Positions 4,101 to 41,696 of a stretch of DNA of 42,077 nt are shown piece by piece. The DNA lies in NCBI GenBank assembly GCA_938048755.1, contig CALIUG010000149.1, positions 1 through 42,077 of the forward strand, written 5' to 3'. Source of the stretch: an uncultured Alphaproteobacteria bacterium (GTDB lineage Bacteria; Pseudomonadota; Alphaproteobacteria; SP197). The translations under genes were made by a program, and so were the position numbers. Numbering within the stretch: the first letter of the stretch is position 1; the number at the start of each line of letters is the position of its first letter. The notes below the pieces were generated by a model. The model did no database searches. It saw only the letters and a list, made by a program, of their open reading frames with translations, and was not told where the DNA came from.

Positions 4101-4622
4101 TCACCCCAACCTTTCCCCAAACGCGTTCAGTGCATCCACCGATCCGATCCGCGTCACCTTGATTCCGGCCGCCGCGGCTTCATCCACATTGGCACGGATT
4201 GTGGGCATCCATTCCTGTTCGGTCTCCCACAGGGTCTCGAACATGGCGCGGGTGCTGATCGGCTCGCCCAGACCGGCGATGGGATGCTCCAGCTTGCCCA
4301 TCTCCTGCAGGATCTGGCGTTCGGCCGCCAACCAGAAGTGCTGCCACAAAACCATGTCGATGAAGATGACCCAGGTTGCGCGCAGCAGGCGGGGCCGGAT
4401 CGAGTCCAGCTTGCCCATGCCCTCGATGATCCAGTTCTCACCGGCAATGAGTGGTGCATGCTCGGCTTCATAGGCGGCATCGGTGGCTTCCACCCAGCCC
4501 GGCTTCCACAACAGTTTGTCGACTTCGACGAGCGGCAGATCACGCGCTGCAGCAAGCCGTCGCGCCAGAGTCGATTTTCCGCCGCCCGCATTGCCCAGAA
4601 TGGCGATGCGTTCGCTGCTCAA
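4101..4622 (-). CDS. P-loop NTPase / small kinase (DNA topology modulation FlaR-like)
   Basis: A 173-residue P-loop protein. The Walker A motif GNAGGGKST lies at residues 10-18, followed by DKLLWKPGW, a signature of the adenylate-kinase-like proteins annotated as topology modulation protein or FlaR. A hydrophobic strand with Asp (WVIFIDM) follows at about 83-89. Family members are predicted nucleotide or shikimate-type kinases; few have a proven substrate. It is downstream of the alcohol dehydrogenase gene with a 4-base overlap (ATGA on the minus strand), so the two are probably co-translated. Confidence 0.8.
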   Translation of the reverse strand: MSSERIAILGNAGGGKSTLARRLAAARDLPLVEVDKLLWKPGWVEATDAAYEAEHAPLIAGENWIIEGMGKLDSIRPRLLRATWVIFIDMVLWQHFWLAAERQILQEMGKLEHPIAGLGEPISTRAMFETLWETEQEWMPTIRANVDEAAAAGIKVTRIGSVDALNAFGERLG

Positions 4623-5704
4623 TGATCGAACACGATCACGCTGCGTGCGATCTCGCCCGACTTCATTTCCTCGAAGGCTTCGTTGATCTGGTCGAGCTTG
4701 ATGCGCCGGCTGATCATGTCGTCGAGCTTGAGTTTGCCGTTGAGGTAGAAATCGACGTAACGCGGCATGTCGCGCCGGAACGCGTTGGAGCCCATGTTGG
4801 AGCCGCGCAGCACCTTGTCGCTGAGCAGATCGTCGGCGGGGATTTCCAGCATCTGACCTTCGGGCACCATGCCGATAATGGTCGCTACGCCCGATGTGCG
4901 CAGCATACGGAAGGCCTGTTCGCTGGTGGTCTTCATGCCCAGCGCCTCAAACGAATACTCCACGCCGCCGCCGGTCAGTTCCTTCACGGCTTCCACGGGA
5001 TCGCATTCGGCGGCATTGACCACGTCGGTCGCGCCGAAATGTTTGGCCAGGTTCAGCTTCGAGCCCTTGATGTCGACCGCAATGATGCGGCCCGCCCCGG
5101 CGATAGCCGCGCCGTTGATGCAGGAAAGGCCCACGCCGCCGCAGCCGATCACCGCCACGGTGCTGCCCACCTCGATGTCGGCCGTGTTGATGACCGCACC
5201 AAAGCCGGTCGTCACGCCGCAGCCGATCAGCGCGGCACGGTCGAGCGGCATGTCCTTGCGGATTTTCACCAGGGCATGTTCGTGCACCAGCATCTGCTCG
5301 GCGAACGAACCCAGGCTGAACCACTGGGTGATGGCCGAATTGCTGTCTGAAAGGCGAGGCTCTTCCCCTTCGCCACGATCCACTTCCGGGTTTTCGCAGC
5401 TGAAGGGCCGCCCGGTCGTGCAGAACTCGCAATGACCGCAGAACACGCTGAGGCAGGTGATGACATGGTCGCCGGGCTTTACATAGGTCACTTCGCTGCC
5501 GACCTGTTCCACAACGCCGGCTGATTCATGGCCCAGGATCATCGGAATCGGGCCGCTGTAGAGTCCTTCGATATAGTGCAGATCGCTATGGCACACGCCG
5601 CAGGCCGCCGTGCGAATCAGCACTTCGTGTGACTTGGGCTTGGAGACCGAAACCTCCTCGATCGAGAGCGGTTTGTTCACTTCACGCAGCACGGCGGCTT
5701 TCAT
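4619..5704 (-). CDS. Zinc-dependent alcohol dehydrogenase (MDR family)
   Basis: A 361-residue medium-chain dehydrogenase/reductase. The catalytic zinc ligands are visible in CGVCHSD (Cys near residue 35-38) and GHESAG (His near 59). The structural zinc lobe has four cysteines in the pattern C-x2-C-x2-C-x7-C (VFCGHCEFCTTGRPFSC). The Rossmann motif GCGGVGLS is followed by acidic IAVD, favouring NAD(H). The insert and GHESAG context resemble the class III/aryl-alcohol dehydrogenase branch. Reaction: reversible oxidation of an alcohol to an aldehyde; substrate not determinable. It is the first gene of a two-gene minus-strand unit with the P-loop kinase. Confidence 0.9.
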   Translation of the reverse strand: MKAAVLREVNKPLSIEEVSVSKPKSHEVLIRTAACGVCHSDLHYIEGLYSGPIPMILGHESAGVVEQVGSEVTYVKPGDHVITCLSVFCGHCEFCTTGRPFSCENPEVDRGEGEEPRLSDSNSAITQWFSLGSFAEQMLVHEHALVKIRKDMPLDRAALIGCGVTTGFGAVINTADIEVGSTVAVIGCGGVGLSCINGAAIAGAGRIIAVDIKGSKLNLAKHFGATDVVNAAECDPVEAVKELTGGGVEYSFEALGMKTTSEQAFRMLRTSGVATIIGMVPEGQMLEIPADDLLSDKVLRGSNMGSNAFRRDMPRYVDFYLNGKLKLDDMISRRIKLDQINEAFEEMKSGEIARSVIVFDH

Positions 5705-6148: not shown

Positions 6149-7021
6149 ATGAAGGTCGGCATGGCAAGAGCAGAGCGGTTCCCGGTTTCCCAAACAGACA
6201 TCGATGCCTTCTGGCGCGATGGCGCCGTCATGATCAAAGGCGTGCTGAGCGACGCCTGGCTCGACGTTCTGGCTCAGGGCGTCGCTACCAATATGGAGCA
6301 GCCGACCAAACGCACGGTCGACTGGGTCAACAACAAGGAAACCGGCGAGCGCCTGTTTCATGACCAGCTTACCGTGCAGCAGAATGCGCATTTCGAGCGG
6401 TACATGACCGGCTCGCCCCTGGGTTCCATCGCGGCCCAGGTCATGGGTTCACCCACCGCGCTCGCCTTCTATGTCACGACCTTCGTGCGCAGTCCCGGCA
6501 CGAAATCGCGCACACCCTGGCATCAGGACCAGACCTATTGGTGTGCTGAGGGACGCCAGGCGCTCAGCATCTGGACTGCGCTTGATTCCGTGGCCCCGGG
6601 TACGGAACTGGAACTTGTCAGAGGCTCCCACCTCTGGGAGCGTCCGCTCGCCCAACCCCATTTCGGCGACGGTCAGCTCGGCGGTGTGATGGAAGTTGAC
6701 GGCGTGGAGTACATCCCCATACCCGATTTCAACGGTGCCGATGCCGGCAAGTACGAGATGATGCGCTGGCCCATGGAGCCGGGCGATATTCTCATTTTTC
6801 ATGGCATGACGGTCCACGGTGGATCCGGCGCGCTGCCCGAAGGTGTGCAGCGACGCAGCATCTCCGCGCAGTTTCTGGGTGAGGACGTCCGCGTGACCGA
6901 CCGGCCCAGCGGTTGCAATCCCGATTGGCTGCCCGAACTCGCCGAAAACGGCATCGGCCTTGGTGACTATCCAGCCTGCGCCATGTGCCCCACGATCACC
7001 TCTGAAGGTGCCGTACTCTGA
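6149..7021 (+). CDS. Phytanoyl-CoA dioxygenase (PhyH) family Fe(II)/2-oxoglutarate oxygenase
   Basis: A 290-residue cytosolic PhyH-family protein. The metal facial triad is visible as HQD within TPWHQDQTYW (His125, Asp127) and the distal His223 in IFHGMTVHGG; Arg235/236 in QRRS fits the 2-oxoglutarate-binding position. The family hydroxylates a wide range of small molecules (phytanoyl-CoA, ectoine, phosphonates, quaternary amines); the substrate here is unknown. The start is ambiguous: ATG 6149 gives the full ORF, while ATG 6161 has a GAAGG five bases upstream. It precedes the M24 gene by 18 bases and is probably co-transcribed with it. A homologue with the same TPWHQDQ core lies at 30843-31628. 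Confidence 0.88.
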   Translation: MKVGMARAERFPVSQTDIDAFWRDGAVMIKGVLSDAWLDVLAQGVATNMEQPTKRTVDWVNNKETGERLFHDQLTVQQNAHFERYMTGSPLGSIAAQVMGSPTALAFYVTTFVRSPGTKSRTPWHQDQTYWCAEGRQALSIWTALDSVAPGTELELVRGSHLWERPLAQPHFGDGQLGGVMEVDGVEYIPIPDFNGADAGKYEMMRWPMEPGDILIFHGMTVHGGSGALPEGVQRRSISAQFLGEDVRVTDRPSGCNPDWLPELAENGIGLGDYPACAMCPTITSEGAVL

Positions 7022-7039
7022 CCCGTTAAGGAGCGTTCC

Positions 7040-8290
7040 ATGACCAATGTAGGATTGCAGCCCGGCCACTTCGATGCTTCCAAGATGGAGGCCATCGAGC
7101 TTCCCTTCACACAGGAAGAGTACGACGCACGGCTGCAGCGCCTTCTGGGTATGGCGCGCGATCAGGGTCTTGATCTTCTCTGGATCACCTCGCCGGAAGG
7201 TGTCGCCTGGACCCACGGCTTTTTTGCCTCCTGGTACAAGGGGCAGGGGCCCATGCGGTATCCGCAGTGCTACGGCACGGCAGTCCACGTCGAATCCGGC
7301 CGCTACATCCATTTCGACAACCCCACCGAGGAACCGGTGCTTGCCCGCACGTCGGTCTCCAAAGACAACCGCTACACACCCGACCGGGAAGCCGAACCCA
7401 ACATCCGGTTCATCATGGATGAGCTTGCCACCGAAGGCTGGCTCGGCGGCACCGTGGGCATGGAATACTGGAGTTACGTGCCCAACCGCGCCATCTCCAC
7501 CATGTTCGAGGGCGCCTTCCTCATGCACGGCTGCCGGCCCGTCGACATGAGCGAGATGGTGCGCAAGGCGCGCCGGCAGAAATCACCCCAGGAAATCGCC
7601 TATACCGAACAGGCCATGGCCTGCTGCGACATTGGCCACCAGACGATCATGGAACACCTGCGGCCGGGCATCACGGAGCTTGATCTCTTCGGCAAGGTCA
7701 TGGCCGCCATGATGGAGGCCGGCGGTGAGTTCTCCGCACTGATTCCCATCTTCAACACCTCGCCCATGGATGGCGAAATCCCCATGTCGAACGGCCACAC
7801 GATGGCATCGCGCAAGGTCATCCAGGCAGGAGAAATCCTCTGCGCCGATCTCTGTGGCGTCTTCAACCGCTACCACGCCAATGCGCTGCGCGGTTACTTC
7901 GTGGGCGACAATCCGCCGCAGAGCCTGGTCGAGCAGTACAAGAAGTCAGGTGGCGTGTTCGAGGTCATCGCCTCGCAGGTGAAGGCCGGCATGACCGTTG
8001 CAGAGGTCAACCGCCTGCTGCGTGCCTACTACGAAGAGGTCGGCATCTGGACCGAAACCGCAGGCTGGGGCCTGGGTTATGAGCTCGGCTGGTCCCTGCC
8101 GCCTGACTGGGTCGGCGACTTCTACTTCCATCTGGGCGACGACAAATACCTCGACCGCGTGTTCGAGGAAAACATGGTCACCAACTTCGAAAGCCTCTTC
8201 AACACCCACCTCATCGACACCCTTGTCTATGAGAAGAACGGCACCCGCATCCTTTCCAAGACCCCCCTCGAACTCATCGCGGTGGGGTAG
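7040..8290 (+). CDS. M24-family (creatinase/ectoine-hydrolase-type) protein with incomplete metal site
   Basis: A 416-residue protein with the two-domain creatinase/prolidase layout: N-terminal domain to about 170, then a pita-bread domain. The five canonical M24 metal ligands are only partly kept. ADLCG retains the first Asp, but the usual GY-x-S-D-x-x-R segment reads RYHANALRGY (Asp to Asn), the catalytic-histidine segment reads GYELGWSLPPDW (His to Tyr), while NFES and VYEKNG keep acidic residues. The RYHxxLxR and PPDW forms recall creatinase and the ectoine hydrolase DoeA/EutD rather than true aminopeptidases. A good Shine-Dalgarno (AAGGAG) precedes the ATG, 18 bases after the PhyH stop. 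I infer a C-N hydrolase acting in sequence with the PhyH enzyme. Confidence 0.85.
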   Translation: MTNVGLQPGHFDASKMEAIELPFTQEEYDARLQRLLGMARDQGLDLLWITSPEGVAWTHGFFASWYKGQGPMRYPQCYGTAVHVESGRYIHFDNPTEEPVLARTSVSKDNRYTPDREAEPNIRFIMDELATEGWLGGTVGMEYWSYVPNRAISTMFEGAFLMHGCRPVDMSEMVRKARRQKSPQEIAYTEQAMACCDIGHQTIMEHLRPGITELDLFGKVMAAMMEAGGEFSALIPIFNTSPMDGEIPMSNGHTMASRKVIQAGEILCADLCGVFNRYHANALRGYFVGDNPPQSLVEQYKKSGGVFEVIASQVKAGMTVAEVNRLLRAYYEEVGIWTETAGWGLGYELGWSLPPDWVGDFYFHLGDDKYLDRVFEENMVTNFESLFNTHLIDTLVYEKNGTRILSKTPLELIAVG

Positions 8291-8536: not shown

Positions 8537-9772
8537 TCACTCTGCCGCCGTCATCATCGAGGCAGGCGGTTTCTGGCGGATCAGGAAGACCATCAGGCCG
8601 GCCAGTACGGCAAGGGCCATGGACGAGAGCCAGACCCAGTAATAGGCGGCATAGAGGTCGAAGAGGTAACCGCCCAGGAAGGCGCCCAGTGCTGCGCCGA
8701 CGGCATGGCCGGCTGAAATCAGGCCCATGGAAAGCCCCATGACTGGCAGGCCCAGATGGCTTTTCACCAGGCTTGCGGTGACCGGAACGGTCGAGAAGTC
8801 GACAACCCCGAAGATCACGGCAAACATGACCAGCGTGGTGTAATCGGCGCCCACATTCAGCAGCAGAATGAACGACAGGCCCCGGATCAGATAGATCATG
8901 CCCAGCAGCAGCGGGCGGTTCATGCGGTCGGTCAGCCAGCCCACCAGGATCATGCCGCCCAGGTTGGCCGCCGACAGTACGCCAAAGGCCATAGTGCTGG
9001 GCACGGGCCCGAAGCCGCAGAACGATGCAAAGGGCATAAAGTGGGTCTCGATCACGCCAGAGGTCGTGTAGCCGCAGATGAAGAAACTCCAGAACAGCAG
9101 ATGGAACGTCGGCGATTTCAGGATGTGAAGCAGGTCCTGGCGCAGGGTCTTTTTTCCGGCACCGGCCGTGTCCGCCCCATCGTCATCGACAGGTTTGCCC
9201 GGCATGTGACGCCACAGGAACGGCACGAGCAACAGGCACAGCAGGCCCGTCGCCGCAAAACACCAGCGCCAGTCGGCATAAAGCAGGATAGCGCCGATCA
9301 GCGGCACGATGAAAAGCTGACCGGCCGTCGCGCCCGATGTCGCGATGCCGGTCGCAAGACCGATCCTTGGAGGGTTGGCCTGGGCAATGGCCGTGCTGAT
9401 CACGCTCATCGCCGCCAGCCCCTGGCCCAGGGCAAAGAGACCGGCAAAGGCAAGAACAAACAGAACCGCACCCTGGCTCAGCGCCACGGCAAAGCAGCCC
9501 AGCCCCAGGATGACGACGCCGGTCACCAGCACCAGCCGCGCGCCGTGTTTGTCGACAAACCGCCCGGCAAAGGGTGCCAGTCCCGCCATCACCATCAGGG
9601 ACGTTGCGGCAATGCCGGAAAGGAAGGTCCGGGTCCAGCCCATCTCGACTTCCAGATCCGGCATCACCAGACTCAGCGTGGCGCGCCCGGAAAAGGCGGC
9701 GGCCAGGACCAGGAAACCCAGGACGACAATCAGCCAGGACGACGAACGGGCAGGGGTGGCGGGTGACGACAT
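8537..9772 (-). CDS. Major facilitator superfamily transporter
   Basis: A roughly 411-residue inner-membrane transporter with about 12 hydrophobic helices. An MFS loop-2/3-type motif GRFVDKHGARLVL follows TM2, and the second half has a matching WLTDRMNRPLLL motif. The layout resembles monocarboxylate/oxalate-formate-type carriers; substrate unknown. The ORF track starts at 9814, but ATG 9772 (MSSPATPARSSSWL) is preferred because AAGGA lies about eight bases upstream and the added residues look non-membrane and unconserved. It is divergent from the GlxA-type regulator, which begins about 60 bases away, so that regulator is a plausible controller. Confidence 0.85.
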   Translation of the reverse strand: MSSPATPARSSSWLIVVLGFLVLAAAFSGRATLSLVMPDLEVEMGWTRTFLSGIAATSLMVMAGLAPFAGRFVDKHGARLVLVTGVVILGLGCFAVALSQGAVLFVLAFAGLFALGQGLAAMSVISTAIAQANPPRIGLATGIATSGATAGQLFIVPLIGAILLYADWRWCFAATGLLCLLLVPFLWRHMPGKPVDDDGADTAGAGKKTLRQDLLHILKSPTFHLLFWSFFICGYTTSGVIETHFMPFASFCGFGPVPSTMAFGVLSAANLGGMILVGWLTDRMNRPLLLGMIYLIRGLSFILLLNVGADYTTLVMFAVIFGVVDFSTVPVTASLVKSHLGLPVMGLSMGLISAGHAVGAALGAFLGGYLFDLYAAYYWVWLSSMALAVLAGLMVFLIRQKPPASMMTAAE

Positions 9773-28244: not shown

Positions 28245-28405
28245 GACTGGCCCTGAGCTGATCTCGCCTTCGTATACATGGGAACGTGGGCGTCAAGTCC
28301 GGCAGAACCAATGGCAAGGAGTCAATGACCGGTTTGTTGCGAGTTCTTGAGGTCGTGGCGCATCGCTCCTAACTTGGCGCGAGTGCGTGACCGGGAGTGA
28401 AAAGC

Positions 28406-30301
28406 ATGAGCCAGCAGTTTGAAGAAGCCTATCGCCGTTCGCTGGAAGACCCGGCCGGTTACTGGGGTGATCTGGCCGAGGCGATCGACTGGACGAAACG
28501 CTGGGATCGTGTGCTCGATGACGACCGCCCGCCGTTCTACCGCTGGTTCGAGGGGGCAGAGACCAACACCTGCTGGAATGCCGTGGATCGCCATGTCGAC
28601 AACAGCAGGGGCGAGCAGCGCGCGCTGATCTGGGACAGCCCGATCACCGGAAAGCAGCGCACCTTCACATACAACGATCTCAAGGCCGAGGTTTCGACCT
28701 TCGCCGGAGTATTGCGCAACCATGGCGTGGAGAAGGGCGACCGTGTTCTGATCTACATGCCTGCGGTGCCCGAAGCGGTGATCGGCATGTTGGCCTGCGC
28801 GCGTATCGGCGCGATCCATTCGGTCGTGTTCGGTGGCTTTGCTGCGGCAGAGGTTGCCAAGCGTCTGGATGATGCCACGCCCAAGGTGCTCCTTACGGCT
28901 TCCTGCGGTATCGAGCCTGGCCGCATCATTCCCTATCTGCCGATCCTCAATCAGGCCTTCGAGATTGCCGAACATGTGCCGTCATCGGTGGTTGTGCTGG
29001 CGCGCGAGGAACAGGACGCTGAGCTCAAGCCCGGGCGTGATCACGACTGGAACGAAGAGTTCGCGCGCGCCAATCCCGTGGACTGGGTGCCGGTGCTGGC
29101 AACCGACCCTCTCTACATCCTCTACACCTCGGGCACGACCGGGAAACCCAAGGGCGTGATCCGTGACAACGGCGGCCATGCTGTTGCCATGCACTGGTCC
29201 ATGAAGGGGGTCTATGACCTCGATCCCGGCGATTGCTGGTGGGCGGCCAGCGACATCGGCTGGGTCGTGGGTCACAGCTACATCGTCTATGCCCCGCTCA
29301 TTCACGGAAACACGACCATCATGTTCGAAGGTAAGCCTGTGGGCACACCCGATGCCGGTGTCTTCTGGCGCGTCATTGCAGAACACGGGGTGAAGGCGCT
29401 CTTCACCGCCCCCACGGCCTTCCGTGCGATCAAGAAGGAAGATCCCAAGGGCAAATTCCTCTCCAAATACGACCTCTCGAAGATGGATACGCTCTTCCTT
29501 GCCGGAGAGCGGGCCGACCCCGACACGATCCAGTGGGCCGAGAACATGCTGCAAAAGCCGGTGATCGACCACTGGTGGCAGACCGAAACCGGCTGGGCCA
29601 TGGCGGCCAACTGTCTGGGCCTGGGCCGTTTCCCCGTGAAGTACGGTTCGCCGACCAAACCGACCCCGGGCTACGACATCGATATTCTCGATGATGCCGG
29701 TCATCCCGTGCCCGACGGCGAGATCGGCGCCATCTGCGTCAAGCTGCCGCTGCCGCCAAGCGGCCTGCCGACCCTGTGGAACAACGATGAGGGTTACATT
29801 GAAAGCTACATGGCCGACTTCCCTTGCTACTACAAAACCGGTGATGCCGGCATGTATGACGAGGATGGCTATATCTACATCATGAGTCGCACCGACGACC
29901 TCATCAACACGGCCGGTCATCGCCTTTCGACCGGCGCGATGGAGGAGGTGCTGTCACGCCATCAGGACGTTGCCGAATGCGCGGTGATCGGTGTTGCCGA
30001 TCAGCTCAAGGGTCAGGTGCCCGTCGGATTCATGGTGCTGAAAGCCGGAGTGAACCGCGAGCATGAAGAGATTGTCGGTGAGGTCGTGCAGATGGTGCGC
30101 GACGACATCGGCGCTGTTGCCAGCTTCCGACAGGCCACCGTCGTCAACCGACTGCCCAAGACCCGCTCGGGCAAGATCCTGCGGAAGACCATGCGCCAGA
30201 TCGCCGACGGTGAAGACTTCCCCATGCCCGCCACCATCGACGACCCCGCGATCCTCGATGAAATCGCCGAAGCGCTGAAGCCGCTGGGGTATGGAAAATG
30301 A
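28406..30301 (+). CDS. prpE: Propionyl-CoA synthetase (AMP-forming)
   Basis: A 631-residue acyl-CoA synthetase of the PrpE/ACS class. The ACAS N-terminal domain has FEEAYRRSLEDPAGYWG; then YTSGTTGKPKGV (ATP loop), DIGWVVGHSYIVYAPL, WWQTETGW (A5), KTGDAGMYDEDGYIYIMSRTDDLINTAGHRLS (hinge) and PKTRSGKILRKTMRQI with the acetylatable catalytic Lys. SRTDDLINTAGHRLSTGAMEE is typical of PrpE rather than Acs. ATG 28406 follows GGGAG; the track GTG at 28397 is three codons earlier. It activates propionate or a related short acid. The stop overlaps the next gene start by four bases. Confidence 0.92.
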   Translation: MSQQFEEAYRRSLEDPAGYWGDLAEAIDWTKRWDRVLDDDRPPFYRWFEGAETNTCWNAVDRHVDNSRGEQRALIWDSPITGKQRTFTYNDLKAEVSTFAGVLRNHGVEKGDRVLIYMPAVPEAVIGMLACARIGAIHSVVFGGFAAAEVAKRLDDATPKVLLTASCGIEPGRIIPYLPILNQAFEIAEHVPSSVVVLAREEQDAELKPGRDHDWNEEFARANPVDWVPVLATDPLYILYTSGTTGKPKGVIRDNGGHAVAMHWSMKGVYDLDPGDCWWAASDIGWVVGHSYIVYAPLIHGNTTIMFEGKPVGTPDAGVFWRVIAEHGVKALFTAPTAFRAIKKEDPKGKFLSKYDLSKMDTLFLAGERADPDTIQWAENMLQKPVIDHWWQTETGWAMAANCLGLGRFPVKYGSPTKPTPGYDIDILDDAGHPVPDGEIGAICVKLPLPPSGLPTLWNNDEGYIESYMADFPCYYKTGDAGMYDEDGYIYIMSRTDDLINTAGHRLSTGAMEEVLSRHQDVAECAVIGVADQLKGQVPVGFMVLKAGVNREHEEIVGEVVQMVRDDIGAVASFRQATVVNRLPKTRSGKILRKTMRQIADGEDFPMPATIDDPAILDEIAEALKPLGYGK

Positions 30302-31721: not shown

Positions 31722-32855
31722 CTAGGTATGGAACAGGCGGCGCTCGATTTGAGTCAGGCGTTCGGGGCCATCCTGGTTCACCACCACGGTCTCGCTGATC
31801 GCCAGACCACGGGCCGACAGGTACATGTGGAACACCATGCCGGCTTCCAGGGGCCAGTCTTCACCGGGCAGGAAACAGCGGGAGAAGTCGCTGGCGATGG
31901 GGCTGAAGCGGGGATAGTGGCCAAGGGTGTAGCCGCTCACATTGTCAAAGGTTTCCCGCAGGCCTTCGGCCAGCAAGGGGTCGCGCGCAATGGCGTCGAT
32001 GTCGCGAGCTGCAACGCCCGGCTTCATGGCTGCGATCTGCTCATCCTGCAGGGCGATGAGACGGTCTGCGATGCCCTGTTGTTCGCCGCTGGGTTTGCCG
32101 ATGACGCAGTTGCGCATCAGGCGGGCACTGTAGCCCCCGACATTGGGAACCAGTTCCATGTGCAGCACGTTGCCTGCTTCCAGCGGCCGGTTGTGGGTGT
32201 GGCCGTGCAGGAAATCCCAACCCTTGCCCGCAGTGATCGGGCCGCACTCGCCCCGGTCCGCACCCAGTCGCACGAACGCGCTGGAAGCGACCATGGCAGC
32301 TTCGCGCTCGGTCTTGCCTGGACCCGCGCTGGCGATGGTTTCGGCCATGGCGGTATCGGCAATGGCCGAGGCCTGTCGCAGCCTCTCGATTTCAGCCGGC
32401 GACTTGATCCAACGCAGTGCCTCAAGGTCGTCAGAGATGTCGATCCAGGATGTGTCGGGCAGGTTCGACTTCAGCGCCCGAAAGCCAGCGACATTGAGAT
32501 TGTAGGAAGCGCCATCGATGCCGACGCGTTCCAACGCCCAGCCGCGTTCCCGCATCGTCGCGGCGACGGCGGCCAGCATGTCGGCGCTGTCATCAATCGC
32601 GACATGATCGTCATAGGGACTGACCTCCAGATAGGGGGCGGCATCCAGAGTGCGATCCACCAGAACCGGCTGGCCTTCCATCGCCACCAGCAAGGCACGG
32701 TAGCGCGTGCCCGATGCATCGTATCCCGTCAGCCAGGCCAGGAACTCGGCACGGTCAATCAGAACCAACGCAAGATCGTGTTTCGCCATGACGGCCCGGA
32801 ACCGGGCCAGGCGCGCGGCAAATTCATCATGGGTGAAGACAGTGAGGTCGGTCAT
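31722..32855 (-). CDS. M24-family creatinase-type protein without canonical metal ligands
   Basis: A 377-residue protein with an N-terminal creatinase domain (1-about 130) and a pita-bread domain. Metal-site segments are degenerate: HMELVPNVGGYSARLMRN replaces D-x-G...GYxSDxxR, GYTLGHYPRFSP has Tyr where the catalytic His of peptidases sits, and GMVFHMYLSARGLAISETVVVNQDG lacks the two usual glutamates. Like creatinase, such a protein could be a metal-free C-N hydrolase. ATG 32855 follows a GAGGAA. It is ten bases downstream of an MFS gene on the same strand, so the pair is probably an uptake-plus-hydrolysis unit. Confidence 0.83.
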   Translation of the reverse strand: MTDLTVFTHDEFAARLARFRAVMAKHDLALVLIDRAEFLAWLTGYDASGTRYRALLVAMEGQPVLVDRTLDAAPYLEVSPYDDHVAIDDSADMLAAVAATMRERGWALERVGIDGASYNLNVAGFRALKSNLPDTSWIDISDDLEALRWIKSPAEIERLRQASAIADTAMAETIASAGPGKTEREAAMVASSAFVRLGADRGECGPITAGKGWDFLHGHTHNRPLEAGNVLHMELVPNVGGYSARLMRNCVIGKPSGEQQGIADRLIALQDEQIAAMKPGVAARDIDAIARDPLLAEGLRETFDNVSGYTLGHYPRFSPIASDFSRCFLPGEDWPLEAGMVFHMYLSARGLAISETVVVNQDGPERLTQIERRLFHT

Positions 32856-32865
32856 GGATTCCTCA

Positions 32866-34065
32866 TCAGTACCGTTTGGGGATGTAGCGGGTGAACCAGC
32901 TCGCGGTCAGCATGCCCGCGCCGGTGACGACAAAGACGGCGGGCAGGGGGAAGACCAGCAGGATCACCGAAAAGGCGCTTTGCGGCATGATGCGGCCGAC
33001 ATCGCGATAGGTCGTGTAGAGCGACATCATCTCGGCCCGTTCGTGTGGCTTGACTGCGCGCACGAACGGCGCGTTCCCCACTGCATCCAGCCACGAAGCA
33101 CAGACACAGGCCAGGATGAGCAGGGCAACGCCGATGGTCGGCATGCTCGAGAACGCAGCCATGACCAGTGCGACGACGCCGGTTGAAACATATCCCAGCG
33201 CAAGGAAGCGCCGCATGCCGAGCGTCACGCCCATGCGGCTCCACAACGGTGCAAACATGACGGCTGCCGCACCCATAGAAACGACCAGCCCGGCATCCTC
33301 GTCGCTGAAGCCGTTCTCGACGCAGTAGATCGGCGCATAGATGAAAAAAATGTTCCACCAGGACGAACGGAAGAGAGCCAGGACATAGGCAAGCTTCAGG
33401 CGTGGCTGACGCAGGAATCGGGGAATGAACCGCAGCGGGTTGGAGTGAGCGCCGCCCATGGTCTTGCGATCAACGACAAAGCCCTTCGCCAGAGCATAGA
33501 CGCAGACCAGGGTGGTCAGCGCACCCATCAGGAAGAACGGAGACCACAGACCGATCCTGTCGGTGATAAAGACGCCCAGCCAGGGACCCAGGGTGAAGCC
33601 TGCACCCAGACAGGCCATGCGCACGGCTTCGAAGCGCACGAAGGTCTGGCGTGGAATACGCTCCATGATCGCGACGTTGATCGTGATGTCGATGGCGAAA
33701 AACCCGAAGGTATAGAGGATCGTGCCGAGATAGAGCGCCCAGACCGTCCGGGTCGGCATCATGATGGCGGCCGCAACAATAAGGAGCGTGCTGGCAATGC
33801 TGATCCAGCGGCGTCCGTAACGGTCGATCAGGGCAGGCACGACCAGGGCACCGCCAAGGCCGATGACACCGGCAACCAGATAGAACTCGCTGACCTTCTG
33901 GGCATCGCCCAGGAGGTCGAGGGCAAGCAGGGGAATGACCGTGAACGGAATGGCCAGACCCAGAATCAGAACGCCCGACATCACCGCAAACGTCAGCGCG
34001 AGCGGAATATCCTGAACGTTCAGAAGACGGGCAAGGAATGATGGCAAGTGGGGGCCCCGTGACAA
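32866..34065 (-). CDS. Major facilitator superfamily transporter
   Basis: A 399-residue 12-helix inner-membrane carrier. ALTFAVMSGVLILGLAIPFTVIPLLALDLLG begins the first bundle, VVPALIDRYGRRWISIAS is the loop 2-3 motif, and the second bundle begins near PRLKLAYVLALFRSSWW. The start appears to be TTG at 34065; no ATG lies upstream of the first helix. The M24 gene follows after ten bases, so it is a candidate importer for the M24 substrate. Confidence 0.82.
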   Translation of the reverse strand: MSRGPHLPSFLARLLNVQDIPLALTFAVMSGVLILGLAIPFTVIPLLALDLLGDAQKVSEFYLVAGVIGLGGALVVPALIDRYGRRWISIASTLLIVAAAIMMPTRTVWALYLGTILYTFGFFAIDITINVAIMERIPRQTFVRFEAVRMACLGAGFTLGPWLGVFITDRIGLWSPFFLMGALTTLVCVYALAKGFVVDRKTMGGAHSNPLRFIPRFLRQPRLKLAYVLALFRSSWWNIFFIYAPIYCVENGFSDEDAGLVVSMGAAAVMFAPLWSRMGVTLGMRRFLALGYVSTGVVALVMAAFSSMPTIGVALLILACVCASWLDAVGNAPFVRAVKPHERAEMMSLYTTYRDVGRIMPQSAFSVILLVFPLPAVFVVTGAGMLTASWFTRYIPKRY

Positions 34066-34120
34066 GGACTAAGCCGGTCAGCCAAGTCCCGCCTAACGGA
34101 CGCCGAGCAGATACGGCCTG

Positions 34121-34591
34121 TCAAGATTTCAGAGCATTGGGCCAGTCCTCATAGAGCGCAAGATACTGTTCTGAACGTTTGGTCCATCGAAACCGACCGA
34201 TTGGCCGATTGCTATCCTTCGCACGGGTGCAAAGGCCCATTTGTACAAGATAATCGCCGATCCGTGGGTCACCATGACGCTGCACAAGAAGGCAGGTAAT
34301 CGCCATGACAAGGGTCTCATAACTGCACCCAATTTTCTCGTTCTTCTTGATGATGTCCTTGATTTCATGCGGCTCGCAATTGAAGACATTGCGACGGCCA
34401 AGTTCGTCGATCGGGGACAGAACCTGTAGCCGATTCAATACGCCCGTAGCGATCTGTAAGGAACTTGTGCACGTGTTATCTACATTCCAAACGACAGTGC
34501 CATCGATCTTGGTTTCAGGGTGGTGAAAGTTGTCCAAGAGATAATAAGCGATGAACTCCGCAAGGTCTTCGTAGCTGAATCCTTCAATCAC
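34121..34591 (-). CDS. Orphan hypothetical protein in AT-richer DNA
   Basis: A 156-residue protein I do not recognise. It is soluble, with acidic and aromatic N-terminus MIEGFSYEDLAEFIAYYLLDNF, a central mixed region (LNRLQVLSPIDELGRRNVFNCEPHEIKDIIKKNEK) and a C-terminus GRFRWTKRSEQYLALYEDWP with winged-helix-like spacing. Two sampled 60-base rows inside it are 43 and 52 percent GC, clearly lower than the surrounding genes, and it uses codons rare nearby. That suggests recent acquisition. Start is GTG at 34591. It sits between the flavoprotein and MFS genes on the same strand, but the spacing (over 50 bases each side) does not argue for coupling. Confidence 0.6.
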   Translation of the reverse strand: MIEGFSYEDLAEFIAYYLLDNFHHPETKIDGTVVWNVDNTCTSSLQIATGVLNRLQVLSPIDELGRRNVFNCEPHEIKDIIKKNEKIGCSYETLVMAITCLLVQRHGDPRIGDYLVQMGLCTRAKDSNRPIGRFRWTKRSEQYLALYEDWPNALKS

Positions 34592-34665
34592 ATTGGCCTC
34601 GGTTGGTGCTCCATGTTGATGCCGATAAAGGCCTGGCTAGGACCGGTATGTCGGAGCAGGTTACA

Positions 34666-35892
34666 TCAGCGATCTGTCGGCATCGAATAACCCTGACGGT
34701 AGGTCTCGGCGATCATGGCCAGGCAGGCATCGCGCGACAGGTCATTGGAAAATCTGGAGGGATGCACGATGGGAAGGTCATAGGGCGCCTTGCCGTCGAC
34801 CATCCAGTCAGCCAGGAATCCGCCCGACCCGCCACCGGTGCCGATGCCTACGGGAAATGCCGTGGCAAGCCAGAGACCGGGATGGCTTTCGACGGGCCCC
34901 AGCAGCGGACAGCCATCGGGGGCGTAGCCGATCGGTCCGTTGTTGACGGTCTTGATTCCCGCGTGCCCGAAAGCCGGCATACGCTCCATCACCTTCAACA
35001 GATGAGGCTCCAGACGCTCTGTGTCGGGCGGCAGCAATTCCTCGGCAAAGTCCGGCGGAATGCCGTCGGTCGCCCAGAACTCCGGCTCTGATTCATAAAC
35101 GCCGCAGAGGAACCCGTGGCCTTCCTGGCGCGTGTTGGACGGCGCCCAGGGGTCGCGCACGGTGGGCACCTCGAAGTCGAGGGCTTCCAGTTCGGGAACG
35201 GAGTCGGTGATGACTTCGTGATGCTGCAGCGGATAGATCGGCAGATTGAGGCCCAGGGGCGCGGCCAGTTCGCGTGCCCAGAAGCTGCAGGCCAGTACGA
35301 CATGATCGGCGGTGACGTCGCCCTTTGGTGTTTCGAGACGCCAGCGCTCTCCGTCCCGTGCGATGGCCTGGACCGGGCATTGGCGTCTGATCTCGGCGCC
35401 GCGTTTGCGCGCTGCCTGGGCCAGGGCATGGGTTGCGCCCGAGGAGTCGACATGGCCGTCGGTCGGGGTGTGGGCCGCGCCCAGCAGATTGCCGGTCTCC
35501 AGCAACGGGTGAACCTGCTTGACCGCGTCGGGATCGATTACGTGATAGGGCACACCCATCGCCTGATACATCGGCTTGAGACTGCGATAGGCAGCGAGCT
35601 CGCGTTCACTGGTAGCAAGGCGCAAGCTGCCTGCGGGGTGAAACCCGACGGGTTGTCCGGTCTCCTGTTCAGCACGCAGATAGGCCGCGACGGAATCGAC
35701 ATAGAGCCTGGTGATGCTGGCGTAGTGTCCAAAGAAGGTGGTGTTGCCCGCAGCATGCCAGGTTGAACCCGAGGTCAGTTCGCGCTTTTCGAGCAGGAGA
35801 ACTTCCGTCCAGCCGCGCCGGGCAAGGGCGTCAAGCACGCTGCAGCCTACAATGCCGCCACCGATCACGGCGGCCTGCACATGGTCGGTCAT
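34666..35892 (-). CDS. FAD-dependent oxidoreductase, DMGDH/sarcosine-dehydrogenase-like, without GcvT domain
   Basis: A 408-residue DAO-family flavoprotein. AAVIGGGIVGCSVLDALARRGWTEVLLLEK is the FAD Rossmann motif, and ELTSGSTWHAAGN (about 38-50) contains the histidine that carries covalent FAD in dimethylglycine dehydrogenase. The second FAD segment ATAFPVGIGTGGGSGG lies near the end. Full-length DMGDH and sarcosine dehydrogenases are about 800-850 residues with a C-terminal folate-binding GcvT domain; this one stops after the dehydrogenase half. It starts two bases after the MttB-type stop with GGGAGCC as ribosome site, so the two are coupled, pointing to oxidative demethylation of an N-methylated amine. 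Confidence 0.85.
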   Translation of the reverse strand: MTDHVQAAVIGGGIVGCSVLDALARRGWTEVLLLEKRELTSGSTWHAAGNTTFFGHYASITRLYVDSVAAYLRAEQETGQPVGFHPAGSLRLATSERELAAYRSLKPMYQAMGVPYHVIDPDAVKQVHPLLETGNLLGAAHTPTDGHVDSSGATHALAQAARKRGAEIRRQCPVQAIARDGERWRLETPKGDVTADHVVLACSFWARELAAPLGLNLPIYPLQHHEVITDSVPELEALDFEVPTVRDPWAPSNTRQEGHGFLCGVYESEPEFWATDGIPPDFAEELLPPDTERLEPHLLKVMERMPAFGHAGIKTVNNGPIGYAPDGCPLLGPVESHPGLWLATAFPVGIGTGGGSGGFLADWMVDGKAPYDLPIVHPSRFSNDLSRDACLAMIAETYRQGYSMPTDR

Positions 35893-35894
35893 GG

Positions 35895-37451
35895 TCAGGC
35901 TCCCTGGTTCCAGACGGGATCAAGAAGAATGGGATACTGCGCGCGGATCAGCGCATCGGTTTCGGGGTCGATCTGCACCGGGCGATGGCTTGCCAGCACC
36001 GAGCGTGCCCGTTCGCTGGCTCGGTCCCACATGTCACGGGAGCCGGCATCCTTCCAGTCGTCTGGCGAAGCGCGGTCGGCGTAGCGGGGATAGATGTATT
36101 CGGTTTCCATCAGCTCCATGGTCTGCTGCGCGCCCAGATAATGGCCGGGCCCCTCAACGGTCTGCGCGACGACATCGACGGAAAGAGTCTCGTCGGTCAC
36201 TTCAATGCCGCGCGCGATGCGACGGATCGAAGCCAGCATCTCGTCATCGATGATCAGGGCCTCGTGTGAGCAGCCCAGTAGACTTGCCAGCATGCCGGCG
36301 GATTCCCAGACGAAACCGCCGCCGGAAAGGGCAGCCGTCGCCATGGTCAGGCCCTTTTCGAATCCGGCCTGATTGTCCGGCAGTTTTGAATCGGTCATGC
36401 CTGCGCCACAGCCGCCGGGAATGCCGTAGAACGCCGACATCTGGCCGGCACCGGCACACAGCAGGGCCTGTTCGCCGCCTCCGCCACTGAAGGCACCTGT
36501 GCGCAGGTCGGAAACAAACAGCCAGTTCCCCATCGCCATGGGATAGCCGGGACTGAGCAGATTGATGACGCACAGGGAAGCCAGCGATTCCGCACAGCCC
36601 TGGGCCAGTGCACCGGCCAGGGCGGCGGGGGAGGTGGCTCCGGCCTGTGGGCCTGTCAGGCAATGGATCGGCATACCGATGTCGATGGCGGCACAGGCCG
36701 CTTCCAGACTGTCCTGGGCAAAGGTCATGGGCGAGACCACGGTGGTGGCATGCACGGTACAGAACGGCCGCTTGGCAAAGGCACCCTCGCCGCCCGCCAG
36801 TAGATCCAGCATGGGAAGCGACGCGGTGACGTTGTTCCCATCGGCAAAACTCGTCGCGATGTGTTTCTTTGTGCCCGCAGCACAGGCATAGATCGTGTTG
36901 ATGTCGAAGGCGAAGACATCCTCCACATCGGTCGCGACTACGGGGCGGGTGATCCATTGCAGGTTTTCCAGCGTGTCGCAGACTCGCGCGATGTCATAGA
37001 GATCACGCAGGGTGCTGGGCCGGTACTGGCGCGTCTCGATATCGAGCATCTTCACGGCAGCACCGCCGGTGCAGAAGTTCACCGTGCCGTTACGCGCCTC
37101 GAAGTCGAACTCGGGCGCGCGTCCATGCACCGTGTAGCGTTTGGCTGCCTTATCCAGCAGGTCTTCGACTAGCGCACGGGGAAACATCAGCCTGCCGTCG
37201 CCCGAGAGCGTGCACCCGCCGGCCAAAGCCGCATCACGTACGCGGTCGGTCGGGGCCGCCATGCCGATGGTCTCCAGCATGGTGAGCGCAGCATCGTGTA
37301 CGCGTTGTTCATCGTGGTCACTGAGGGGGCGATAGGGCGATGCCAGGCTGCTGCCCTGCACCATGGTCATGGATTGGGCCGCAGCCTTGCGTTGCCTGCG
37401 CCGCGCCTCGCGTCCGCCCAGGCGACCAGAGGGTGTCGAATGGTCATCCAT
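35895..37451 (-). CDS. MttB-superfamily (trimethylamine/glycine-betaine-type) methyltransferase
   Basis: A 518-residue member of the MttB superfamily. True TMA methyltransferases carry pyrrolysine from an in-frame TAG; this gene reads straight through with no TAG, so it is of the non-pyrrolysine type, whose characterised members demethylate glycine betaine, carnitine or proline betaine. Landmarks: the basic N-terminus GGREARRRQRKAAAQ, YRPLSDHDEQRVHDAALTMLETIG, TGGAAVKMLDIETRQYRPSTLRDLYDIARV, the glycine-rich YGIPGGCGAGMTDSKLPDNQAGFEKG and the C-terminal YLGAQQTMELMETEYIYPRYAD. These enzymes need a corrinoid protein (MtbC-type), which is not seen here. AAGG lies about eight bases before the ATG. 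Confidence 0.9.
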   Translation of the reverse strand: MDDHSTPSGRLGGREARRRQRKAAAQSMTMVQGSSLASPYRPLSDHDEQRVHDAALTMLETIGMAAPTDRVRDAALAGGCTLSGDGRLMFPRALVEDLLDKAAKRYTVHGRAPEFDFEARNGTVNFCTGGAAVKMLDIETRQYRPSTLRDLYDIARVCDTLENLQWITRPVVATDVEDVFAFDINTIYACAAGTKKHIATSFADGNNVTASLPMLDLLAGGEGAFAKRPFCTVHATTVVSPMTFAQDSLEAACAAIDIGMPIHCLTGPQAGATSPAALAGALAQGCAESLASLCVINLLSPGYPMAMGNWLFVSDLRTGAFSGGGGEQALLCAGAGQMSAFYGIPGGCGAGMTDSKLPDNQAGFEKGLTMATAALSGGGFVWESAGMLASLLGCSHEALIIDDEMLASIRRIARGIEVTDETLSVDVVAQTVEGPGHYLGAQQTMELMETEYIYPRYADRASPDDWKDAGSRDMWDRASERARSVLASHRPVQIDPETDALIRAQYPILLDPVWNQGA

Positions 37452-37524: not shown

Positions 37525-38070
37525 TCAGGCTCCCTGAGCATCCTGCATCAGCGGAGGTGCCGTGAAGGTCATCACATTGCGCGGTTCGTTGTCGCGCTTG
37601 GGGTTGGGTATCATCCTCTCCTCGAACGCTCCGTGCGTGTAGCCATGGATAACGCTGCGCCAGAACGAAACCGCTGCCGTGTTCTCGGGAATCTGCGTGA
37701 CCTGCCAAACCCCTGGAAAACGATCGAATGCCAAAATCGTGGCGCGCCGTCCCACACCAAGGCCCGCAAACGGACCCATGACAAAGAACTGGCTCATGTT
37801 CCAGTCGATGCCGGGCACAAGGGCATAACGATCGATCAGGCAAAATTCGGCCAGCATGCCGTCAGCCTCGATCAGGAACGGATGGTTGCCGTCCTCCCAG
37901 GCATAGGCGATGTCTTCGTGATGCTGGAACCAGGTACGCTCGCCCACCCAATCGGCATCGGGGCCGATCTGGCTGCCAACGGCATAGATGTAGAATCGCA
38001 TCATGTCCTGGACGAGTGCCATGTCGCCATGACCGGCTTCGACCAGTGTGACCGCCCTGATGTCAGGCAT
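37525..38070 (-). CDS. GNAT-like N-acetyltransferase-fold protein
   Basis: A 181-residue protein with a GNAT-like layout: an N-terminal MPDIRAVTLVEAGHGDMALVQDMMRFYIYAVG, a central HPFLIEADGMLAEFCLIDRYALVPG strand region, MSQFFVMGPFAGLGVGRRATILAFDRFPG as the acetyl-CoA-binding region (G-x-GVGRR) and a final VSFWRSVIHGYTHGAFEER. ATG 38070 is chosen because it begins the domain and overlaps the hydrolase stop by eight bases; the longer track ORF (38538) is a shadow of the hydrolase. Substrate unknown. It lies between the hydrolase and MttB genes on the same strand. Confidence 0.8.
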   Translation of the reverse strand: MPDIRAVTLVEAGHGDMALVQDMMRFYIYAVGSQIGPDADWVGERTWFQHHEDIAYAWEDGNHPFLIEADGMLAEFCLIDRYALVPGIDWNMSQFFVMGPFAGLGVGRRATILAFDRFPGVWQVTQIPENTAAVSFWRSVIHGYTHGAFEERMIPNPKRDNEPRNVMTFTAPPLMQDAQGA

Positions 38071-38878
38071 AACCGGCGATGATCTCGCGGATCTTGTTGG
38101 CGACGGCTTCGGGCTTGTGGCGGAAGACCGAGCCGTGGCCCATGCCCTTGAGCAGATGAAAGTGGCCATCGGCGGCGGCTTCGGCGACCTGTTTGCCGCG
38201 GGCGGGCGGGGTCTGCATGTCCTGCTCGAACCCGATGACGTGGAGCGGCCGTGTTGCCTGGGCCAGGCGTGACGTGCCGGTGTATTCCAGGCAGGCCTGC
38301 CATTGCGCAGCCAGCATGTCGCCGTCACGTTCGGCATAGGCTGCCGCAACGACCGGCTTGCACTTTTCCCAGAGATCATCGTCGCCCAGCACCTCTGAGG
38401 GATAGAGCAGCAGCGCGTAATGGGCGAGAGCGAAATCAGCAGGCAGCTTGCCGCCGGATTCACGGAAGCGGATTTCCGCACCCTCCCATTCATGGATGAA
38501 ACCGGCCTTGCTGCCTGATGTTCCCATGGCGATGCCAAAACGGATCAGGTCGGGATGCGACAGGATCATCTCCTGGACAATCAGCGCGCCCATGGAGAGT
38601 CCCACGATCACCACCGGCGGCTCGCAGACCTCGCGGATCAGTGCGGCAAGATCATCAGCATAGGTCGCAATCGGCCAGGGTGGCGGCTTGCTGGCAACGG
38701 TCTTGCCGGCGCCGCGCGGGTCAAAGCTGGTGCAACGGAAGTCCGGAAAGAGGTCGAACTGCTCGCCCCATTCCTCCCCTGTCTGATCGCCACCGGGACA
38801 CCACACGATATCGGGGCCGCTGCCCTGCTGCACATAGTGAAGCGAAACTTCCGGTGTTTCGAACGTGGCGTGATGCAT
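38063..38878 (-). CDS. Alpha/beta hydrolase
   Basis: A 271-residue alpha/beta-hydrolase. The start is MHHATFETPEVSLHYVQQGSGPDIVWCPGG; the oxyanion region is DPRGAGKT; the nucleophile elbow is GLSMGALIVQEM; a late Asp falls in VIGFEQDMQTPPARGK and the catalytic His in KGMGHGSVFRHKPEA. ATG 38878, with GGGAG about nine bases upstream, is preferred over a TTG at 38905. Reaction could be ester, lactone or C-C hydrolysis; not determinable. It overlaps the GNAT-like gene by eight bases and probably heads a unit running to the flavoprotein. Confidence 0.87.
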   Translation of the reverse strand: MHHATFETPEVSLHYVQQGSGPDIVWCPGGDQTGEEWGEQFDLFPDFRCTSFDPRGAGKTVASKPPPWPIATYADDLAALIREVCEPPVVIVGLSMGALIVQEMILSHPDLIRFGIAMGTSGSKAGFIHEWEGAEIRFRESGGKLPADFALAHYALLLYPSEVLGDDDLWEKCKPVVAAAYAERDGDMLAAQWQACLEYTGTSRLAQATRPLHVIGFEQDMQTPPARGKQVAEAAADGHFHLLKGMGHGSVFRHKPEAVANKIREIIAGYA

Positions 38879-38930
38879 GACTGGCGCTCCCGATGCGATC
38901 GGCAAACGCTAGTCGTATTTGCCACGTTTG

Positions 38931-39491: not shown

Positions 39492-40439
39492 GTGAGCCAG
39501 ATCCATCTCGAAATTGACCACCTGCAACTACTCGATGCCGTCGCGCGGACCGGGTCGTTGGCACAATCGGCAGTGCTGCTTGGCTTGACGCAGCCCGCAC
39601 TCAGTTATCGTCTGAAAGAGGCCGAGCGTCGGCTGGGCGTGCCTCTGTTTGTGAAGGCGCAAGGACGCAAGGTGCAGATGACCGCAGCAGCGAGCCGCCT
39701 GTTGCCGACGGCATCGATGGTTCTGCGTGAGGTAGCCCGGGCCGAAGAGGACATTCGCCGGCTTTCCGACGGCATCCATTACCTGCTCCGTCTGGGTGTG
39801 GAGTCACGTTCCGGATTCCTCTGGCTCCCGAAGTTTCTTGCACGCTTGGGTCGGGAACATCCCGAACTGGAGGTTGATCTGGTCTGCGAGCCCTCACGGG
39901 CGGGGCTGGAGGCACTGGTGCGCAATCAGATCGATCTTGCCGTCGTCCTTGCCGGGGAAATCGGTCCGGCCTTCACGGCTCGATCGTTGTTTGATGATGA
40001 ATTGGTGGCGGTTGTTCCAGACGGGCACGCACTTGCGGAACGGCCCTGGCTGGAGGCCCTGGACTTCGCTGATCAGGCGCTCGTGACTGACGAGCCCTGG
40101 GGCGATGGTGGTGTGCATGCTGCAGCGGTTCTGGTGCCTGCCGGTATCCGTCCAGCCCGCATGGTCGGTGCGGGTTCCGCGCAGGGTGTCGTTGACATGG
40201 TGGAAGCAGGCTTTGGGCTCGGCATTGTCAGCCGGCGCCTGGCACAGGACAGAGGCCGAGCCATCACCCTGACACCGATCGGCAGGAAGGGATTCCAGAC
40301 ACGCTGGCAGGTCGTTGTACGAGGTGAGGAGGAAGCGGGATCTCCTGCAAGCTTCATGGCTGAACGCATGTCTTACTGGTGCGAAGGCGCGGATGCCGCA
40401 ACGCTTCCTCTGGTCACCCAGTCAGCTGCGCAAGCTTGA
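39492..40439 (+). CDS. LysR-family transcriptional regulator
   Basis: A 315-residue LysR-type regulator. IDHLQLLDAVARTGSLAQSAVLLGLTQPALSYRLKEAERRLGVPLFVKAQGRKVQMT is the N-terminal helix-turn-helix, MetR/CbbR-like in its LTQPALSYRLKEAERRLG form. The C-terminal half is a periplasmic-binding-protein-like effector domain. The start is GTG 39492 after TTGGAGGTGC; a GGAGG lies about five bases upstream. Likely targets are the divergent GNAT and/or the convergent cupin-peroxiredoxin unit. Its last 26 bases overlap the 3' end of the cupin gene. Confidence 0.9.
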   Translation: MSQIHLEIDHLQLLDAVARTGSLAQSAVLLGLTQPALSYRLKEAERRLGVPLFVKAQGRKVQMTAAASRLLPTASMVLREVARAEEDIRRLSDGIHYLLRLGVESRSGFLWLPKFLARLGREHPELEVDLVCEPSRAGLEALVRNQIDLAVVLAGEIGPAFTARSLFDDELVAVVPDGHALAERPWLEALDFADQALVTDEPWGDGGVHAAAVLVPAGIRPARMVGAGSAQGVVDMVEAGFGLGIVSRRLAQDRGRAITLTPIGRKGFQTRWQVVVRGEEEAGSPASFMAERMSYWCEGADAATLPLVTQSAAQA

Positions 40440-41052
40440 TCGGACCCGGTGAGCGCCAGAAGCAGAAGGTAAAGAGCGGCGTTTTCTGGGTGATCATCTC
40501 GTGGGGCAGCCAGGGCGTGTTGTGCACCGCTTCACCGGCAGGGCGCAGGCGCGGGGTTTCATCATCCTGGCTCCACAGGGTGTCGCCGCCGAAGGGGAAA
40601 TAGATCTCCTCGGCCTCGTGATGATGGCGCGGATAGTGGCGGCCGGGCCCGATGATGAAGAAGGCAGCGATGACCCGGTCATGCTCGATCAGGCCGTCAT
40701 AGCCCAGAATGTTGGTGTAGCAGTAGTTCTCCATGTAATCGTCGCCGAGTTTCTCCCGGTAATGCTCGGTGCGGATCCAGCGCAGGTCGGGCTCGATCTC
40801 GGCGAATGCGGCTGCCAGGGTCTCCATCGGTCCGCCCTTCGCCATGGCCAGTGCGGCGTCGAGATGCCGGTGGCCGCCCAGGCGTCTGGGCTCCGGTCGA
40901 ACCGCGGGCAAGTGCGCCTGCTCGATCTCGGTCGCAACGGCATGAATGACGTCGGCCTGATGATCCGGCGCATGCCGTTCACGGTCGGCAAGAAAGGCAA
41001 GCATCTCGTCGCGCAGACGCTCAAACCGGGCTTCAAACGATGGCGTGTTCAA
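40414..41052 (-). CDS. DMSP-lyase-family cupin (DddQ/DddL-like)
   Basis: A 212-residue single-domain cupin. The C-terminal half carries the metal signature HYPRHHHEAEEIYFPFGG (140-156) and a second motif LPHEMIT (His184). Position for position, Tyr140, His143, His145, Glu149, Tyr151 and His184 match the Y-x2-H-x-H-x3-E-x-Y ... H set described for the DMSP lyase DddQ. The N-terminal helical region with DLRWIRTEHYRE and GYDGLIEHDRV also fits the DMSP_lyase family. DMSP lyases split dimethylsulfoniopropionate into DMS and acrylate. The start is TTG 41052, overlapping the peroxiredoxin-like stop (TTGA), which indicates translational coupling. Family call good; DMSP as substrate is inference. Confidence 0.78.
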   Translation of the reverse strand: MNTPSFEARFERLRDEMLAFLADRERHAPDHQADVIHAVATEIEQAHLPAVRPEPRRLGGHRHLDAALAMAKGGPMETLAAAFAEIEPDLRWIRTEHYREKLGDDYMENYCYTNILGYDGLIEHDRVIAAFFIIGPGRHYPRHHHEAEEIYFPFGGDTLWSQDDETPRLRPAGEAVHNTPWLPHEMITQKTPLFTFCFWRSPGPIKLAQLTG

Positions 41053-41696
41053 CCGTCCTGTCCTGCCAGCGCATCCAGCGCTGCCACGACATCGGCCGGT
41101 TCGGCGCGCTTGCGGAAATCAGGATCAGCCGAGGCGAAGGCAATCTCGCGCTGGTTGTTGATGATGAACGTTGCAGGTACCGGCAGTTCCCAACTGTCGT
41201 CACCATTGATCGAAGCAAGGTCCAGGCCGAAGTCGCGGTAGAGCTCCCGCGACGGGCCATCCATCTGGTAGACGATGCCGAACTTGCGCGCGACCGTGTT
41301 TCCCGGATCGCTCAGCACTTCGAACGAAAGCGCGTCGATTTCACTCGGCGTGAGTGAATCATCGGGAACCTCAGGCGAGATTGCCACGAGCCTGGCACCG
41401 CGTGCGGTAATCTCGGGCAGGGCAAGCTGATAGGCCGCGAGTTTCGCGCTGCAATAGGGGCACCATTTTCCGCGATAGAACACGACGACGGCCGGGCCCT
41501 CGATCAGGAGCGCGCGCAGGGCCGTTGCACTGCCATGGGCATCCGACAGGATGAAGTTCGGTGCCTGGTCGCCCACCTTCAACGCACCGGATCCTGCGCC
41601 GCCTTCGGCAACGCGGCGGATCATGTCGTTGACGGCACTGGACGCTTCAGGCGGCATGCCCTGTTCGATGGCATGGAGCTGGGTTTGCAGCCTCAT
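41049..41696 (-). CDS. Peroxiredoxin-like (AhpC/TSA) protein
   Basis: A 215-residue thioredoxin-fold protein of the peroxiredoxin-like group. VGDQAPNFILSDAHG is the family start, FYRGKWCPYCSAKLAAYQ the active site (CPYC: a CxxC rather than the PxxxTxxC of classical AhpC), and LPVPATFIINNQREIAFA the cis-Pro region. It probably reduces hydroperoxides or a disulfide. It is first in a two-gene unit with the cupin. I see no good Shine-Dalgarno before ATG 41696. Confidence 0.88.
   Translation of the reverse strand: MRLQTQLHAIEQGMPPEASSAVNDMIRRVAEGGAGSGALKVGDQAPNFILSDAHGSATALRALLIEGPAVVVFYRGKWCPYCSAKLAAYQLALPEITARGARLVAISPEVPDDSLTPSEIDALSFEVLSDPGNTVARKFGIVYQMDGPSRELYRDFGLDLASINGDDSWELPVPATFIINNQREIAFASADPDFRKRAEPADVVAALDALAGQDG

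Follow-up and report, generated by a model that had tools for sequence, protein, structure and literature searches.

A PF16867 cupin with the DddQ active-site residues in a clade of its own within one alphaproteobacterial lineage

Introduction

PF16867 genes are labelled DMSP lyase in annotation, for example in rhizobial plasmid records, and, as Lei et al. 2018 put it in their title (cited in PMC8520302), the family also contains "other enzymes with unknown function". Residues Y120, H123, H125, E129, Y131 and H163 are essential in RlDddQ (PMC4437653). A cupin gene with the equivalent residues, found in DNA of an uncultured alphaproteobacterium, raises the question of whether the residue set identifies a DMSP lyase. 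If its clade cleaves DMSP or DMSOP, alphaproteobacteria have one more group of cupin lyases; if it does not, inventories of DMS-producing genes built on such matches are inflated. The whole stretch of 42,077 nucleotides that was analysed is called the window below.

Results

The cupin and its active-site residues

40414..41052, minus strand: PF16867 (DMSP lyase-like) cupin, 212 aa, TTG start (open reading frame; PF16867 E 3.3e-30; orthologues in 12 loci)
40501..40635, minus strand: active-site stretch with Y140, H143, H145, E149, Y151 and H184 (aligned to RlDddQ)

The active-site stretch extends exactly from Y140 to H184, codon 140 starting at 40635 and codon 184 ending at 40501. Alignment paired Y140, H143, H145, E149, Y151 and H184 with RlDddQ Y120, H123, H125, E129, Y131 and H163. 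A preliminary description, made from the sequence without database searches, had reported the full DddQ set in DddQ order, and all six residues are indeed present; its list of RlDddQ residues agrees with PMC4437653. The last histidine had appeared to be one residue off, which is explained by a one-residue insertion in the cupin before that histidine, shifting H184 relative to H163. W92, Y98, Y140, H143, H145, E149, Y151, H184 and W199 are invariant in the orthologue group A2; the orthologue in genome G003, which is additional to A2, departs from this pattern.

Family membership and predicted fold

The cupin scored 105.4 bits against the PF16867 profile, for which the cut-off is 27, and the E value of 3.3e-30 excludes a chance match. 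In the AlphaFold model (pLDDT 92), the predicted fold had DddQ structures as its six best matches, and these aligned over the full length with TM-scores of 0.64-0.74. Further down the list were generic cupins, phosphomannose isomerases and thiol dioxygenases, which matched the barrel only, with TM-scores to the query of about 0.4. The closest solved sequences were also DddQ. On the profile, the closest solved sequences and the closest solved folds, the assignment to PF16867 holds at the family level.

The fold matches included no solved structure of a non-lyase PF16867 protein, so the fold search cannot separate the branches of the family. R. pomeroyi DddQ (5cu1) matched the cupin with an E value of 3.7e-11 (46 bits), and the best E value to any solved DddQ was 1.2e-11. 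The cut-off of the DddQ survey in PMC5395565 was E < 1e-30 to R. pomeroyi DddQ; the cupin, at 3.7e-11, lies outside it, in a comparison between databases of different size.

The residue set across PF16867

About 100 PF16867 proteins were gathered across the genus, family and class to which the window genome belongs; a locus on a rhizobial plasmid and the sequences of three solved DddQs were added. The complete six-residue set was found in 97 of the 103 aligned rows, with every branch represented. The set is thus family-wide and marks PF16867, not the reaction, which rules it out as proof of function. It cannot tell DMSP lyases apart from other members of PF16867: three such genes lie in one genome, and a rhizobial one lies in a betaine-catabolism cluster. 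The two further paralogues of the window genome gave best E values to solved DddQs of 3e-10 and 3e-12, about the same as the 1.2e-11 of the window cupin. They belong to other PF16867 branches and are located at L037 8853-9491 (C256) and L003 1360-1977 (C134). The C256 gene is divergent from an NADH:flavin oxidoreductase gene and near a URO-D family gene.

The rhizobial protein with the full set is annotated as DMSP lyase and sits within a betaine/ETF/formaldehyde cluster. Rhizobium johnstonii pRL12 carries two PF16867 genes annotated in this way (L149 4995-5600 and 7350-8045), surrounded by genes for betaine transport, flavin oxidoreductase, ETF and formaldehyde detoxification. The second of them (7350-8045) has lost most of the active-site residues. 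The DMSP lyase annotation of the L149 genes may be wrong.

Tree placement and likeness to known lyases

In a maximum-likelihood tree of the 103 PF16867 rows, which did not include DddW, DddU, DddK or DddY sequences, the window cupin fell in its own 15-row clade with support of 100/100. The three solved DddQs fall in another clade. A further clade, of nine rows, is also separate; we read it as DddL because one of its members is encoded in an acuR-acuI operon, with AcuI and AcuR both above their NCBIfam cut-offs. The acuR-acuI-dddL operon type is described in PMC3017554. The tree thus placed the cupin in neither the DddQ clade nor the DddL clade with its acuR-acuI operon. In AU tests, a constraint grouping the window clade with only the DddQ rows was disfavoured (p 0.037), and one that also included L129 and L135 was not (p 0.4).

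Mean core identities between the window clade and other groups were 29 and 28% for the two DddQ groups, 26% for DddL and 30% for each paralogue group, with values of up to 35% for groups that are uncharacterised. As judged by sequence, the window cupin resembles DddQ (28-29%) no more than it does other PF16867 branches. Speaking for lyase chemistry, the clade retains nearly all residues that do not vary across DddQ and DddL, among them an N-terminal Trp/Tyr pair. In this alignment the tyrosine of the pair is missing in most of the rhizobial-type group and in the P3 paralogue group; a two-residue insertion makes the alignment uncertain there. The cupin had been described as a DddQ-type DMSP lyase. 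The family stands, and DddQ supplies the nearest solved folds and sequences, but the label DddQ-type is not borne out, as the residue set is family-wide and the cupin lies outside the DddQ clade.

The DddQ structures compared were those of Ruegeria lacuscaerulensis (4la2/5jso), R. pomeroyi (5cu1) and Roseovarius nubinhibens DddQII (4b29). The window cupin is like them in belonging to PF16867, in pairing a helical N-terminal part with a cupin barrel, and in having the six essential residues and a tryptophan equivalent to W178; it is unlike them in its clade and its core identity of 28-29%. With DddL of the acuR-acuI-dddL type it has in common PF16867 and the W, Y, H, H, E, Y, H and W positions, but it is in a different clade, at 26% identity, without acuR-acuI neighbours and with different cupin-motif spacing. 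The rhizobial proteins annotated as DMSP lyase (RL_RS35500 and relatives) share the family, the residue set and a context of methylated-compound genes; they differ in clade, and most of them have a gap in the N-terminal Tyr column. DddK and DddY have the cupin barrel, the site in DddK being H-H-E-Y-H (PMC10686828), and both were found by the fold search, but their fold match was weaker and they were not among the sequence matches of the window-clade profile.

Gene neighbourhood and distribution

41049..41696, minus strand: peroxiredoxin-like protein (AhpC-TSA; Pfam), adjacent to the cupin in part of the family only
39492..40439, plus strand: LysR regulator (Pfam), convergent with the cupin, 3' ends overlapping by 26 bp
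38063..38905, minus strand: alpha/beta hydrolase (Pfam and locus comparison), the most constant clade neighbour, 75-94% identity
35895..37451, minus strand: MttB-family methyltransferase (PF06253; Pfam)
34666..35892, minus strand: FAD-dependent oxidoreductase (DAO; profile match)
34121-34591, minus strand: open reading frame without a Pfam match
32866..34065, minus strand: MFS transporter, a frequent clade neighbour

The LysR gene shares 40414-40439 with the 3' end of the cupin and 39492-39527 with the start of a divergent GNAT open reading frame, the GNAT start being taken from the first start codon. The dddW gene has a divergently transcribed LysR (PMC4437653); the window LysR is ruled out as a regulator of this type because it is convergent with the cupin.

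A minus-strand run at 31722-37451 consists of the MttB gene, the FAD oxidoreductase, the 34121-34591 frame, the MFS transporter and a creatinase/prolidase-like M24 gene, and is likely a methylated-osmolyte catabolic locus. In marine bacteria, MttB-family (PF06253) proteins in the MtgB role have been linked to the demethylation of glycine betaine (PMC12478193). Across the orthologous loci the most constant neighbours were the alpha/beta hydrolase, the MFS transporter and the septation gene yciB (PF04279); LysR, GNAT, peroxiredoxin, MttB and DAO were present only in subsets. Some loci carry an additional second MttB gene and an NADH:flavin oxidoreductase. The NADH:flavin oxidoreductase neighbours matched OYE/FadH models best, below cut-off, so that demethylase is a putative label for them. 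The gene context suggests methylated-osmolyte use. It is suggestive only, and may mislead, since the congener G008 has yciB, hydrolase, MttB, DAO, MFS and PrpE at the same locus without the cupin or the peroxiredoxin, and since two cupin copies from bins labelled Gammaproteobacteria have none of the usual close neighbours, save a weak GNAT match in L065.

A clear cupin orthologue was found in 13 of the 16 genomes of the window's family; a weaker match in G011 belongs to a different PF16867 branch by the tree. A pattern-based scan of 84,980 genomes gave 11 loci, all from MAGs, nine of them in alphaproteobacterial or unclassified bins and two in the Gammaproteobacteria-labelled bins. The latter two (L065 4473-5105 and L066 4977-5606) are 67-70% identical to the window cupin and may reflect transfer or mis-binning.

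Discussion

We propose, with a probability of roughly 0.55, that the gene encodes a mononuclear-metal cupin of PF16867, from a separate subfamily in one alphaproteobacterial lineage, whose substrate is a small carboxylate of the onium or betaine type. In nature this is most likely to be a methylated osmolyte, and it may be a compound processed by the methyltransferase/FAD-oxidoreductase locus nearby. DMSP is among the candidates, and its cleavage is possible. In line with the proposal, PF16867 genes occur in the rhizobial betaine/ETF cluster and beside an NADH:flavin oxidoreductase in the window genome. The metal, the chemistry and the substrate class are modelled on homologues, following the mechanisms in the DddW, DddQ and DddK papers (PMC4437653, PMC5395565, PMC10686828). 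By homology to these enzymes, H143, H145, E149 and H184 would hold a divalent metal. The metal would bind the carboxylate of a small zwitterionic acid of the onium or betaine type, and aromatic residues such as W199 would hold the cationic head. Y151 would then act as the base that removes the alpha proton, leading to beta-elimination or a related proton-transfer reaction.

The cupin may instead be a true DMSP (or DMSOP) lyase that converts DMSP to DMS and acrylate by a Tyr151-initiated beta-elimination, the acrylate passing to the PrpE-like ligase or to another route. Every cupin DMSP lyase known so far accepts DMSOP as a substrate too (PMC10686828). The presence of every essential DddQ residue is consistent with such a lyase, as are DddQ being the best solved sequence and fold match and the retention of the Trp/Tyr pair common to DddQ and DddL, which is absent from two other groups in the alignment. 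Against it, the cupin is outside the DddQ and DddL clades, its E value to R. pomeroyi DddQ is about 4e-11 against the <1e-30 of PMC5395565, and the paralogues match DddQ about equally. Further, the window's own genome gave no AcuI equivalog above cut-off, a search of ten genomes of the genus gave no AcuI match at E <= 1e-60, and no acu gene lies beside the cupin. We regard a true DMSP lyase as unlikely, though a real candidate.

The prpE and Zn-ADH genes of the window had been offered as downstream support for DMSP use, and this support falls away, neither gene being DMSP-specific. The "prpE" at 28397-30301 has propionate-CoA ligase as its closest model but scores 711 bits, under the cut-off of 827; it lies 10 kb from the cupin, and G008 has it at the same locus without the cupin. 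The Zn-ADH at 4619-5704 is nearest to the class III/formaldehyde-dehydrogenase branch, below cut-offs, and was rejected as AcuI (33 bits against the TIGR02823 cut-off of 297).

The coupling to the peroxiredoxin-like gene also claimed in the preliminary description was upheld in part. The stop of the peroxiredoxin-like gene overlaps the cupin's TTG start as TTGA, which makes coupling plausible, and the peroxiredoxin homologue, present in seven family genomes, always accompanies the cupin (7/7); but the association is patchy, with six family genomes carrying the cupin and no peroxiredoxin homologue. The two genes might together make up a small module of redox or detoxification function, with no relation to osmolyte carbon, in which the cupin modifies a reactive product. 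The TTGA overlap, the restriction of the homologue to cupin-bearing family genomes and the damaged look of both genes in G003 favour such a module, and the six cupin genomes without the homologue, together with the gammaproteobacterial-bin copies that stand without peroxiredoxin, speak against it; we give it only a small chance. In G003 the cupin (L049 8232-8861) has H143Y and H144Y, and the adjoining peroxiredoxin homologue (8864-9511) has an in-frame TAG. These changes may reflect joint decay or an assembly or sequencing error.

Other cupin chemistry, such as that of an isomerase or a dioxygenase, or a non-catalytic binding role is quite improbable: generic cupins, phosphomannose isomerases and thiol dioxygenases are next in the fold list and the Lei et al. 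2018 title (cited in PMC8520302) allows for enzymes of other kinds in PF16867, but such folds match the barrel only (about 0.4, against 0.64-0.74 for full-length DddQ) and both tyrosines are conserved.

A bolder idea is that the members of the clade act as lyases on a nitrogen analogue of DMSP (e.g., beta-alanine betaine to trimethylamine and acrylate) or on another methylated betaine, with a tie to MttB-type methyl transfer in these bacteria. The reaction would be new for the family, and we hold this idea as a long shot.

Two M24 genes in the window were considered as DddP and rejected; their best solved matches were the ectoine hydrolase DoeA and prolidases, with no DddP at E <= 0.001. At 6149-8290, a gene for a PhyH family protein adjoins one for an M24 protein; among solved proteins the latter matches ectoine hydrolase DoeA best.
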